Source of the DNA: Micavibrio aeruginosavorus
GTDB lineage: Bacteria; Pseudomonadota; Alphaproteobacteria; Micavibrionales; Micavibrionaceae
Direction: 5' to 3'
Assembly: GCA_016432265.1 (NCBI GenBank)
Contig: CP066681.1
Coordinates: 1-64,000 of the forward strand
Length of the DNA stretch: 64,000 nucleotides
Below the pieces are notes generated by a model that had not been told where the DNA came from, searched no databases, and was given only the letters and a program-made list of their open reading frames with translations. Below, in pieces: positions 17,901 to 24,359 of the stretch; the first letter of the stretch is position 1; every line of letters begins with the position of its first letter. The position numbers and the translations under genes are program-made.

Positions 17901-17939
17901 GGCCCCGAGCAAGGCGCCTGTGCGATCTCAGGGGCTTTT
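17901..17939 (+). terminator. Probable terminator after lptB
   Basis: The stem GGCCCCGAG pairs with CTC-A-GGGGC-T (one bulged A), enclosing a loop that contains a GGCGCC dyad. TTTT follows. It overlaps the last codons of the convergent ATPase gene. The bulge and short T-run keep confidence moderate. Confidence 0.5.
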
Positions 17940-18659
17940 CAAGCTGGCAAAAGGGTTCATCTGGTTCCGTTTTTGTGATCGCTGCATATCCTCTGCCAAT
18001 TTGACACGGTAATCCGGGCCGCTGGTATCGACAGAAAATCCACGGCCACCGACCAATTCTTGCACGCGGCTGGTAATACGGCCGATCCGATCATGCCTTT
18101 GCAGGAACGGCAGCAACTCATCCGCCAGCGAGAAATTCGACGACATGACCGCCAGGCATTTCTTCTCATAAACCATCGTCAAGAAAGTAGAGAGCGTTTT
18201 GTAATCGGAGGAATCAGCTTGCTGCAAAGACTGTTTGTCGGCAAAAAGATCATCCACGACGATGATCGGTTTACGCTCATAATCCAGATGCATGTTATCG
18301 CTGCCGTCCAGAACCGGATAATGCAGCTTGCCGCGATAAAAATAGATACTCGGTAAAATTTCCGGAGCGTCATCCTTCAATTGGTTGATTACCGCCTCTA
18401 TCAGGTGACTCTTGCCAGTCCCCGACGTTCCGTGCAGAAAAATGATCATGCCGTCCGGAAAAGGACTGGGTTTTGCAACATGACCAAACGAAGGGGAGAG
18501 TGCCGCCGCCCCTCCTGCAAACAGGGCTTTGTTGTCGACGAAAGACTGTGCAAGCGCCCGCAGGTTGCTGGCGGCGGTTTTCTGATTCTCGTTTTGCGGC
18601 GCATAATTCGAGAATGTGCTGCCCGGTCTGATATCCTGAATCTGGTTCTTGCCGCCCAT
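17928..18659 (-). CDS. DnaC/IstB-like AAA+ ATPase
   Basis: The 243-residue product has Walker A HGTSGTGKSHL (about residues 76-86), Walker B IIVVDDLF (about 131-138), a sensor-1 asparagine in MSSNFSLADE and an arginine-rich segment DRIGRITSRVQELVGGRGFSV. The latter resembles the arginine finger/sensor region of DnaC- and IstB-type helper ATPases. The first 65 residues are low-complexity with an N-terminal MGGKNQIQDIRPG lead. There is no adjacent transposase, phage replication gene or helicase, and it interrupts the lptB-rpoN order on the opposite strand. DnaA-like regulators of the Hda type are an alternative, but their N-terminal clamp-binding motif is not obvious. Confidence 0.75.
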   Translation of the reverse strand: MGGKNQIQDIRPGSTFSNYAPQNENQKTAASNLRALAQSFVDNKALFAGGAAALSPSFGHVAKPSPFPDGMIIFLHGTSGTGKSHLIEAVINQLKDDAPEILPSIYFYRGKLHYPVLDGSDNMHLDYERKPIIVVDDLFADKQSLQQADSSDYKTLSTFLTMVYEKKCLAVMSSNFSLADELLPFLQRHDRIGRITSRVQELVGGRGFSVDTSGPDYRVKLAEDMQRSQKRNQMNPFASLKSP

Positions 18660-18775: not shown

Positions 18776-20260
18776 ATGAGCGCGAATCTCACCCAACGTC
18801 TGGATCTCAGGCAGTCACAAAATCTCGTCATGACCCCGCAACTGCAGCAGGCCATCAAGCTGCTGCAGATGAACAATGCCGAATTGAACGAATTCGTCGA
18901 AGAAGAGCTGGCGCAAAACCCCCTTCTGGAGAAAGCCGAACCGGAAGGCGGAACAGCAGAGCCGATGGAAACTCCTGCGCAAGATACGCGTGACGGCGTC
19001 GGCGAGGAATTTGACGAGGCCTGGACAGGAAACGAGGCCGAAAGCAAGGCTGAGCCTTCGGGTGCCGTCGACTTCGACCTTGGCACCCAGCAGGCCGGAA
19101 GCGGCGGCAACCGGTCATTCGAGGATAGCGAGCTTTCTCTTGAAAACACGCTCTCGCGGCAAACCACACTGCGCGAGCATCTGCACGAACAGATGCTGAT
19201 GGCCTTCAATGACCCCAAAGACCGCCTGATCGGCGGCTTGATGATCGAGATGCTGGATGAAAGTGGCTACCTCAGGCTCGATATTGACGTGCTGGCGGAA
19301 CGCCTCGGCGCAAAAAAAGAACTGGTGCGCGATATCCTCGACCGCCTGCAGCAGTTTGACCCACCCGGCATCTTTGCCGGATCCCTCGCGGAGTGTTTGA
19401 AACTGCAACTGGATGAACAGGGGCAATTGGACGAACCGATGGAAAAACTGCTGGCGCATTTGCCGCTGCTGGGCTCACATGACTATGAAGCCCTATGCAG
19501 GATATGCGGCGTCAACCAGACCTACCTGATGGATATGATCGCTGAGATCAAGTCTTTGAACCCTCGCCCGGCAAGCCTGTTCGAGCATATGATCGTCCAG
19601 ATGATCGTACCTGACGTTGTGATGAAGGCGATCCCGAAATCGGAAGGTGGCGGCTGGCGCGTCGAACTGAACAGCGACACCCTGCCCCGGGTTTTGGTCA
19701 ACCAGGAATACGTCGCGGAAATTTCGGCGCACGCCAAGGATAAGAAGTCGCGCGAATATCTGAATGAGCAACTCAATTCGGCCAACTGGCTGATCCGCGC
19801 CCTGGATCAACGCGCCAAGACCATCCTTAAGGTCGCCAGCGAGATTATCGAACAGCAGGAACCTTTTTTCCTTTATGGCATCGAGTTCCTGCAACCGCTG
19901 ACGCTCAAGGATATCGCCGAAAAAATCGATATGCACGAAAGCACGGTCAGTCGCGTCACCAGCAACAAATATATCGGCACGCCGCGCGGGCTGTTCGAGC
20001 TGAAATATTTCTTCTCAACCGCCATCACCAGCGCAGACGGCAGCGTGCACAGCGCCGAAGCGATCCGGATGAAAATCAAGGCGCTGATAGACGCTGAAAA
20101 GCCTGAAGCTATCCTCTCCGATGACGCCATTGTCGAGATTCTGCAAAAAGACAAGATCGACATCGCCCGCCGCACTGTGGCCAAGTATAGGGAATCATTG
20201 AATATTCCCTCTTCAGTGCAACGGCGGCGCATCAAAAGGTCGCAGGCTGGACGATCTTGA
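18776..20260 (+). CDS. rpoN: RNA polymerase sigma-54 factor
   Basis: The 494-residue product begins with the glutamine-rich activator-binding region (LTQRLDLRQSQNLVMTPQLQQAIKLLQ), an acidic region II, the core-binding region, a helix-turn-helix (LKDIAEKIDMHESTVSRVTSNKYI) and the RpoN box ARRTVAKYRE (464-473). Sigma-54 reads -24/-12 promoters with AAA+ activators. No activator is encoded nearby. The downstream hpf and ptsN genes are its conserved neighbours. Direct repeats at 18728-18759 precede the start. Confidence 0.98.
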   Translation: MSANLTQRLDLRQSQNLVMTPQLQQAIKLLQMNNAELNEFVEEELAQNPLLEKAEPEGGTAEPMETPAQDTRDGVGEEFDEAWTGNEAESKAEPSGAVDFDLGTQQAGSGGNRSFEDSELSLENTLSRQTTLREHLHEQMLMAFNDPKDRLIGGLMIEMLDESGYLRLDIDVLAERLGAKKELVRDILDRLQQFDPPGIFAGSLAECLKLQLDEQGQLDEPMEKLLAHLPLLGSHDYEALCRICGVNQTYLMDMIAEIKSLNPRPASLFEHMIVQMIVPDVVMKAIPKSEGGGWRVELNSDTLPRVLVNQEYVAEISAHAKDKKSREYLNEQLNSANWLIRALDQRAKTILKVASEIIEQQEPFFLYGIEFLQPLTLKDIAEKIDMHESTVSRVTSNKYIGTPRGLFELKYFFSTAITSADGSVHSAEAIRMKIKALIDAEKPEAILSDDAIVEILQKDKIDIARRTVAKYRESLNIPSSVQRRRIKRSQAGRS

Positions 20261-20427
20261 TCTCTGACTTATATCAAGGCAGGGATACCTTAGATATTCC
20301 TTAATGATTTGACAATATTCTCAAGCCTAAGATGAAGGAAGGAGGGAGACTTGCCAAAGACACATAATCCTTTCAGACTTTCCAACGATTTTAACTTTCC
20401 CAACACCAACATATGGAAGTGAATGCC

Positions 20428-21177
20428 ATGCATATTACCGTACAAGGTAAACAGATGAACGTGGGCGATGCCCTGCGTACCCATGTCACCAACAAGCTGG
20501 AGGATATGAACAGCAAATATTTCAATCATGGCACCGATGCGAATATTACTTTCTCCAAAGAGGGTCATGGACATGGTCTGATCCGCGCTCATATTTCCGT
20601 ACGGGTCGGCAGCAGCATCATGGTGATGGCCGACGCCGAAGAGGGCGATGCCTATCTGGCCTTCGACACAGCCGCTGAAAAAGCAGCCAAGCAGTTGCGC
20701 CGCTATAAGCGCCGTCTGCGCGACCACCACGACCGTCTACAACGCACTCCTGAATCCGACATGCTCAAAGCACGCGATTACACGCTTTCAAGCAATGATT
20801 CGGACGAAGAAGGCGATTTGCCCAAAGGGGACGAAGCGCTGGTGATCGCAGAAATGACTACGCATATCCCGACCCTGACGGTTTCGGAAGCTGTGATGCG
20901 CCTTGACCTGGCACACCAGAACGCCTTCTTGTTCCGCAGCGCCAAACATGGCGGCATCAACATGGTGTATCGCCGCGCTGACGGGAATATCGGCTGGGTC
21001 GACCCCGGTCTGGCCGCCAGCCTGCCTAAGGCCAGCAGCAAGGCGACCACCAAGGCTCCCGCGAAGAAAGTCGCCACCAAAAAATCGGCGGCCAAATCGA
21101 ATGTGAAAAAGCTGCCGGCGAAAAAGAAGGCCGCCGCCAAAAAGACAACGGCCAAGACGGCACGCAAGCGAGCCTGA
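20428..21177 (+). CDS. hpf: Long-form hibernation promoting factor with lysine-rich C-terminal tail
   Basis: The 249-residue product has an N-terminal ribosome-binding domain (1-105: MHITVQGKQMNVGDALRTHV, then the YKRRLRDHHDR basic helix) and a C-terminal dimerisation domain (about 135-192, including TLTVSEAVMRLDLAHQNAFLF and GGINMVYRRADGNIGWVDP). Long HPF dimerises 70S ribosomes into inactive 100S particles. Normal long HPFs end soon after the YRRxDGxxGW motif. This one continues with a 49-residue tail (201-249) with 17 lysines and 2 arginines in KKAAAKK/KTTAK patterns, like histone H1 or AlgP. I chose the ATG at 20428 (GGAAG ahead) over 20413. A strong terminator follows. Confidence 0.93.
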   Translation: MHITVQGKQMNVGDALRTHVTNKLEDMNSKYFNHGTDANITFSKEGHGHGLIRAHISVRVGSSIMVMADAEEGDAYLAFDTAAEKAAKQLRRYKRRLRDHHDRLQRTPESDMLKARDYTLSSNDSDEEGDLPKGDEALVIAEMTTHIPTLTVSEAVMRLDLAHQNAFLFRSAKHGGINMVYRRADGNIGWVDPGLAASLPKASSKATTKAPAKKVATKKSAAKSNVKKLPAKKKAAAKKTTAKTARKRA

Positions 21178-21199
21178 GAAGAGATCGTTAGACAGAATC

Positions 21200-21226
21200 A
21201 AAACGCCCCTTTTTGGGGCGTTTTAC
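21200..21226 (+). terminator. Rho-independent terminator after hpf
   Basis: AAAACGCCCC-TTTTT-GGGGCGTTTT is a perfect 10-bp stem with a five-base loop, running into a T-tract, 23 bp after the hpf stop. The A-run on the other side makes it potentially bidirectional. Confidence 0.9.
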
Positions 21227-21338: not shown

Positions 21339-21854
21339 ATGGCCATAGACGCCGCCGAATCAACAAAGGTGACTCCCTTGTACGTTTCTGATGATGAACG
21401 CCTGCAGCTTGATCTGATCTTGCCCGACCTCAAGGCGCCGCATATAACGCAGGCTTATCAAGCGATCTGCAACAAGGTCGATATGATGACCGGATTCCCG
21501 GCCCGCACATTGTTCACACAGTTGATGACCCGCGAGCAGCAAGCCAGCTCAGGGATCGGCGAAGGTGTGGCGATCCCGCACTTGCGGCTGCCTAAATTGC
21601 AGAAACCTTTTATCTTGCTGGCGCGCCTGGCGCGCCCTTTAGAATTCAACGCCGTTGACGATTATCCTGTCGACCTGATCACTATGTTGCTCTCGCCTGG
21701 CAGCGACGGCCCGCACCACTTACGGCGACTCTCCCGGATATCCCGGCTGATGCGCAATCCTGCCTTGCTGGAGGATTTGCGTAACGCCGCTGACGCCGAT
21801 GCCCTGCGCAGCCTGTTGGAGCAAGGCAGCCAGCGCTTGCTGGCCGCCGCCTAA
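21339..21854 (+). CDS. ptsN: PTS IIA-Ntr nitrogen regulatory protein
   Basis: The 171-residue product has the EIIA-Ntr fold with DLILPDLKAPHITQAYQAIC and MTREQQASSGIGEGVAIPHLRLPKL, where H81 is the phosphorylated histidine. FILLARLARPLEFNAVDDYPVDLITMLLSP follows. It is the last step of the PTS-Ntr phosphorelay (PtsP-NPr-PtsN), which controls potassium transport, nitrogen responses and stress. PtsP and NPr are not in this window. The ATG at 21339 is preferred to upstream non-ATG starts, which would run into the hpf terminator. Confidence 0.93.
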   Translation: MAIDAAESTKVTPLYVSDDERLQLDLILPDLKAPHITQAYQAICNKVDMMTGFPARTLFTQLMTREQQASSGIGEGVAIPHLRLPKLQKPFILLARLARPLEFNAVDDYPVDLITMLLSPGSDGPHHLRRLSRISRLMRNPALLEDLRNAADADALRSLLEQGSQRLLAAA

Positions 21855-23263: not shown

Positions 23264-23668
23264 ATGACTGTGCAGACACGAACAGAGCTTCAGGATATAA
23301 AGTTCACCGATAATCCGGTGGCCCGAAACCGCCCCGATCACTATACAGAAATCACGGTCGACACCGCTGAAATCATCAAAAGCTGGCGCGAATCCCTGTT
23401 TTCCTTCGAGTGGCTTCTGCCTGACGGGCGCATCAAGTCGTCGGGCGAACTCTCTGAAGCTGAAAGACCTCGTCGCGAGGCGGTGGAAGCGGCGATGGCC
23501 AGTCAAACCCCGCTCGACAAACCGGTCTTAGGGATCGGCATGCTCGATAACGTCGAAATCGGTTCGGGGCGCGCGACCTTCCTGACGCTCGTAGCCCACG
23601 GATTCAAAACCCTGCCTGTTCACATTCCGCGCACCAATGAAGCCGATTTCAAAAAATTCCGGGTCTGA
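23264..23668 (+). CDS. Hypothetical protein
   Basis: The 134-residue product is soluble, without signal peptide or recognised motifs. It is moderately charged, with SWRESLFSFEWLLPDGRIKSSGELSEAE in the middle and a C-terminal half predicted as alternating strands and helices (GIGMLDNVEIGSGRATFLTLVAHGF). I chose the ATG at 23264 because GAGG lies six bases before it; the in-frame ATG at 23252 has no ribosome site. It precedes the pseudopilin-like gene by 13 bp, so the two probably share a transcript. Confidence 0.6.
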   Translation: MTVQTRTELQDIKFTDNPVARNRPDHYTEITVDTAEIIKSWRESLFSFEWLLPDGRIKSSGELSEAERPRREAVEAAMASQTPLDKPVLGIGMLDNVEIGSGRATFLTLVAHGFKTLPVHIPRTNEADFKKFRV

Positions 23669-23681
23669 TAAACTAGACAGC

Positions 23682-24359
23682 ATGAGACATTCCGAAAGCG
23701 GCAACGCCATCTTCTATATCTTTGTCGCCATCGTTCTGCTGGCTGCACTTTCCTTCGCCGTCGCCGAGGGCAGTCGCTCAAGCGGAAAGACGCTTAGCGA
23801 GGATCGTGCGCGACTGGCCGCATCGGAGATTATTTCGTACGGCGATGCCGTCAACAAAGCTGTGGGCATGCTGCGCCTGCGCGGGATTGCCGCCACGGAT
23901 ATAAGCTTTGCTCACCCCGATGCCGACGTTGGCTACGGCACCTACGGCACAACGCCGACAGCAGAAGTCTTTCACCCCGAAGGCGGTGGTGTCACCTATC
24001 GCCTGCCCCCGGATCTCGGGATTGCAACCGCCGGAACGGCCTATTTGTTCACTGGCAGCAATCAGGTCGAGAATATGGGGTCGGTTTGCGGCACAGCCGC
24101 ATGCAGCGATTTGCTGCTGTTGTTGCCCGATGTCAAGCTGGAGGTCTGTCAGATCATAAACGTCATTCTCGGCTATAGCGACAAAAACGCCGTGCCCGTC
24201 ACCGACAGTGATACCGATCTGACATTATTCGCCGGCACATTCACGAACATCGAAACGTTGAGCGATGAAGATCCGCTGCTGGCGTCGCGCGCCGCTGGCT
24301 GTTATCAGGATTTAAACACGTCAAATTACATATACTATCAGGTTCTGCTGGCGCGCTGA
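23682..24359 (+). CDS. Membrane-anchored protein with pseudopilin-like N-terminus
   Basis: The 225-residue product begins MRHSESGNAIFYIFVAIVLLAALSFAVAEGSR: a short polar lead with glycine then a single hydrophobic helix (about residues 9-30), as in type IV pilin-like and Tad-type pseudopilins. The remaining 190 residues are extracytoplasmic in character (acidic, Thr/Gly-rich) with cysteines in SVCGTAACSD, LEVCQIIN and AAGCYQD that could form disulfides. There is no prepilin peptidase or assembly ATPase nearby, so its processing is inference. The convergent cysS stop lies 14 bp away. Confidence 0.6.
   Translation: MRHSESGNAIFYIFVAIVLLAALSFAVAEGSRSSGKTLSEDRARLAASEIISYGDAVNKAVGMLRLRGIAATDISFAHPDADVGYGTYGTTPTAEVFHPEGGGVTYRLPPDLGIATAGTAYLFTGSNQVENMGSVCGTAACSDLLLLLPDVKLEVCQIINVILGYSDKNAVPVTDSDTDLTLFAGTFTNIETLSDEDPLLASRAAGCYQDLNTSNYIYYQVLLAR

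Follow-up and report, generated by a model that had tools for sequence, protein, structure and literature searches.

Members of the long-form hibernation promoting factor (HPF) family have two domains: the N-terminal one obstructs the 30S decoding region, and the C-terminal one dimerises, joining two 70S ribosomes into a 100S particle. Published 100S structures show the C-terminal domains of HPF paired where the two 30S subunits meet, close to h26, h40 and uS2 (PMC5620043, PMC5620080). Low-complexity, basic C-terminal tails are common on bacterial proteins that bind nucleic acids. Lys-rich tails occur on bacterial ribosomal proteins such as L21, where nucleic-acid binding has been proposed (PMC6821194), and those of TopA and HupB serve DNA binding or processivity (PMC7398561). 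DNA binding by tails that resemble histone H1 is known from other bacteria (PMC7398561, PMC9239181), and AlgP, whose tail is of the KPAA type, is found with polyphosphate granules during starvation (PMC9239181). A Lys-rich tail on HPF was not found in the open-access literature. Because such tails are documented on ribosomal proteins, TopA, HupB and AlgP, the kind of tail described below is already known, and only its placement on HPF looks new.

The DNA analysed here (the window) is a stretch of 64,000 nucleotides from Micavibrio aeruginosavorus, which contains the following features around its hpf gene:

18776..20260, + strand: rpoN (sigma-54), the upstream neighbour of hpf, from family searches
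20415..20419, + strand: GGAAG, the probable Shine-Dalgarno sequence of the hpf start at 20428, from sequence; G001 has GGAAG too
20428..21177, + strand: coding sequence of a long-form HPF of 249 aa, stop included, from translation, Pfam and NCBIfam
20434..20721, + strand: Ribosomal_S30AE (PF02482), the N-terminal ribosome-binding domain, from Pfam
20833..20994, + strand: Ribosom_S30AE_C (PF16321), the C-terminal dimerisation domain, from Pfam and fold matches to 3ka5, 3lyv and 5ngm
21028..21174, + strand: Lys/Ala-rich, predicted disordered tail, residues 201-249, from composition and AlphaFold2
21199..21225, no strand assigned: terminator-like palindromic hairpin AAAACGCCCC-TTTTT-GGGGCGTTTT just 3' of the hpf stop, conserved in G001
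21339..21854, + strand: gene for a ptsN-like PTS EIIA-2 protein, the downstream neighbour of hpf, from family searches (the start at 21339 is our choice; the mechanical ORF begins at 21213)

Judged from its sequence, the product of 20428-21177 is an ordinary long-form HPF in the usual rpoN-hpf-ptsN setting. Pfam places Ribosomal_S30AE at residues 3-98 (69 bits, cut-off 23.7) and Ribosom_S30AE_C at residues 136-189 (59 bits, cut-off 25), and the HPF/YfiA family model TIGR00741 of NCBIfam scores 69.3 bits (cut-off 40.9). The start at 20428 is backed by the upstream GGAAG and by the N-termini of homologues. The protein shares with the long-form HPFs of S. aureus, L. lactis and alphaproteobacteria both domains and their order, an acidic linker, the GW-V-D-P end of the C-terminal domain and the gene neighbourhood; among 53 homologues, W190 never varies and P193 hardly does. 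It is the single HPF found in the whole genome, and by analogy with the family it would be expected to block 30S decoding and to join ribosomes into 100S particles. Upstream of rpoN, between it and an LptB-like ABC gene, lies an antisense ORF (17928-18659, - strand) resembling a P-loop ATPase, with weak matches to RNA_helicase, ZapE and DnaA-like families.

The difference from known long-form HPFs lies at the C-terminus. Ordinary members mostly stop 2-20 residues after the conserved W-V-D of the C-terminal domain, while the Micavibrio protein continues for about 57 residues, 49 of which form the Lys/Ala-rich tail. A preliminary description had reported a normal long HPF ending near residue 192 and followed by an H1-like tail, and this account holds in full: both Pfam domains are present, solved HPF structures match residues 4-192 of the 249, and the tail (residues 201-249) contains exactly the 17 Lys and 2 Arg that had been counted, with no Asp or Glu. 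Residues 195-249 carry a net charge of +19, against -3 for residues 1-194. The window has 221 stop-to-stop frames of 100 aa or longer, and none of the others has a C-terminus as rich in Lys (17 of 49 residues, with 9 of 49 in the runner-up). KKAAAKK, AKKVATKK and similar motifs are irregularly arranged, and regular KPAA-type repeats are absent. AlphaFold2, run with a 53-sequence alignment, gives most of the core outside the linker a pLDDT of 89-97 and the tail 53-59, without helix or strand, so that the tail is predicted to be intrinsically disordered on an intact HPF fold. Foldseek matched the model to HPF in the S. aureus 100S (5ngm) and L. lactis ribosome structures and to the isolated HPF C-terminal domains 3ka5 and 3lyv.

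The tail is shared by the one other genome of the same genus that was compared (G001), whose HPF is 87% identical and runs for 66 residues after W-V-D. The tails differ by two indels, of 4 and 5 codons, both of them whole-codon, and the stretch KSNVKKLPAKKK is identical. Over 57 aligned codons of the tail, the two genomes differ by 30 synonymous and 19 nonsynonymous changes, fewer replacements than expected under neutrality (binomial p ~2e-7). The dN/dS is ~0.09 for the tail and 0.03 for the core, values that are only rough because they come from a single genome pair with synonymous sites near saturation. The preliminary description had allowed that a frameshift might make the tail unique to this genome, or that it might not be translated. 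Since G001 has the tail conserved, in the same reading frame and subject to purifying selection, a frameshift, a sequencing error and an untranslated tail were all rejected. Together, the selection, the whole-codon indels, the identical KSNVKKLPAKKK and the shared hairpin make it very likely that the tail is translated and has been maintained. Terminator-like minus-strand matches within the tail were judged to be by-products of the A runs in Lys codons.

The survey of other HPFs covered the family, class and phylum of the window organism. HPF is present in 99 of 104 family genomes. Some of the related contigs bear the label Micavibrio, which agrees with the Micavibrio-like affinity guessed in the preliminary description. 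Family and class loci yielded 136 HPF frames (counting the Micavibrio gene itself three times), and 89 further frames, partly overlapping the first set, came from named and phylum loci; the class sample comprised about 160 of 250 matches and took in nearly all long frames among the matches listed. In these frames, 57-66 residues follow W-V-D within the genus and 2-36 elsewhere. No comparable tail was found on other HPFs outside the genus, across the 99 HPF-bearing family genomes and the broad class sample, among the matches listed. Family genomes from which no frame was extracted have HPF open frames of ~220 aa or less, which leaves no room for such a tail. When the C-terminal end of HPF and its tail were searched together against 398 phylum genomes, no other HPF matched through the tail without meeting a stop. 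Apparent full-length matches at three loci (L172, L174 and L188) were rejected: the HPF at L172 ends PAGVAGSVKQ and those at L174 and L188 are absent from the 40 longest ends, hence have at most 6 residues there, so that the matches must cross stop codons. A contig scan with the single HPF protein as query gave no match; with the alignment as query, 80 named loci were recovered, and the HPF tails there are no longer than the Micavibrio one.

The scan of homologues that the preliminary description had proposed thus located the tail in G001 and basic HPF tails of 32 residues at most elsewhere, bearing out its statement that ordinary long HPFs lack such an extension. Within the frames compared, the longest basic tail outside the genus has 32 aa with 8 Lys (G015; the groundwater MAG of the named record JACQIJ010000003.1 has the same tail), followed by 24 aa with 6 Lys in a second genome of that genus (G450) and 22 aa with 6 Lys in G497. 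The 36-aa end at L078 is Gly/Cys-rich and of another type, and most remaining HPFs have 2-20 residues beyond the C-terminal domain. On the evidence of these comparisons, the Micavibrio tail is a real basic extension, specific to this lineage, on an HPF that is ordinary in other respects. The shorter Lys-rich 3' ends of hpf in two related genera (L043, L046 and L006) suggest stepwise or repeated gain of basic HPF tails.

The gradation of tail lengths through related genera is also what one might expect of low-complexity drift, in which codons were gained by chance in a lineage tolerant of Lys and Ala and the tail has little function of its own, perhaps staying basic only because acidic or hydrophobic changes are harmful. 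Indels do change the length of the tail within the genus, and it evolves faster than the core (dN 0.16 versus 0.04). However, its dN/dS is far from 1, acidic residues are absent in both species (tail charge +19 in the window and +22 in G001), and part of the tail is identical in the two. Drift is considered unlikely.

A charge of +19 with no acidic residue suits nonspecific binding of RNA or DNA, as had been proposed from the sequence, and the tail probably helps HPF to hold one or the other. The explanation that we favour, with a probability of roughly one half, is that it adds electrostatic, nonspecific binding to rRNA at the 30S-30S interface. In this model, the C-terminal dimerising domain of a functional long HPF is extended, in this genus, by a disordered and strongly basic tail, and the two tails of an HPF dimer would add ~40 positive charges. 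These charges would be placed at the interface because the HPF C-terminal domains adjoin the rRNA helices h26 and h40, and a tail leaving the C-terminal domain would meet rRNA first. The result would be a tighter, nonspecific electrostatic grip of HPF on 16S rRNA (or nearby mRNA), and hibernating ribosomes might thereby become more stable or longer lived. The intact HPF domains, the conservation of the tail and the selection on it in G001, the published 100S geometry and the L21-like tails are all consistent with this reading, which infers binding from charge and physiology from binding, and with them the RNA target and the consequence for 100S particles. Like the tail of L21, that of HPF would be a basic C-terminal extension at the ribosome surface, although L21 is a structural protein and HPF binds at the interface in times of stress. 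A point against the rRNA reading is that close relatives manage without a tail.

Two other genes of the same genome bear on the choice between RNA and DNA. Topoisomerase I, named by its sequence (~2.361 Mb, L235), ends in a tail, KKSVTKKKTAAKKTAAKKKPATAKKPAAKKKSAG / KKTAAKKKPATAKKPAAKKKSAG, with a composition like that of the HPF tail, and a free H1-like protein of 72 aa, nearly all KK-A/P/T repeats, is encoded at ~933.1 kb (L033:1402-1620, + strand). An AKK..AKK pattern matched only these two in the genome, but it is so narrow that the HPF tail itself escapes it, and further tails may be present. The presence of the same type of tail on DNA-binding TopA and on the H1-like protein points equally to DNA. 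The tail might accordingly act as a tether that binds chromosomal DNA, as do the tails of AlgP, PhaF, HupB and TopA, and holds hibernating ribosomes on or near the nucleoid. The HPF tail shares with these its low complexity, disorder, K/A (P/T) composition and C-terminal position, but their carriers are DNA-, granule- or topology-related, whereas the carrier here is a ribosome-bound hibernation factor. For a protein so located, the local concentration of rRNA would far exceed that of DNA. In addition, no DNA kinship of the HPF tail with the topA or H1-like genes was found beyond that expected from the peptides, and the likeness is one of composition that does not imply ancestry. Nucleoid DNA is the main rival to rRNA as the target, but a tether of this kind is considered unlikely. 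More doubtful still is a bifunctional HPF whose H1-like tail fastens dormant 100S particles to the DNA of the nucleoid, or gathers the particles into bundles, so that ribosome storage and chromosome compaction would be coupled. The behaviour of AlgP in starvation would allow a further reading, in which the target of the tail is polyphosphate, or another polyanion of starving cells, rather than nucleic acid; this seems very improbable, as neither PPK1 (PF02503) nor PPK2 (PF03976) was matched in the genome, which is rated ~89% complete.

If the tail strengthens binding to ribosomes or nucleic acid, the genus would represent a natural experiment in which a low-complexity tail retunes a hibernation factor, with tail-less close relatives as ready controls. 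If instead it binds DNA, ribosome storage would be linked to the nucleoid.

Several possible sources of the tail were tried and rejected. Copying from topA or from the H1-like gene was one of them: the best DNA match to topA is 25 nt at 92%, and 46 of 200 shuffles that kept the peptide but exchanged synonymous codons did as well, while the H1-like gene matches less well than expected. Tandem-repeat expansion was likewise rejected, the only repeat being a weak one near the start of the tail with a 12-nt period and 2.4 copies. The H1-like gene adjoins an ORF (L033:515-1177, - strand) that has a paralogue in the window at 23637-24359 (+ strand; 29% identity, E 3e-24). The two share a pilin-like N-terminus, SGNAI plus a hydrophobic stretch, and the copy in the window has no Pfam family.
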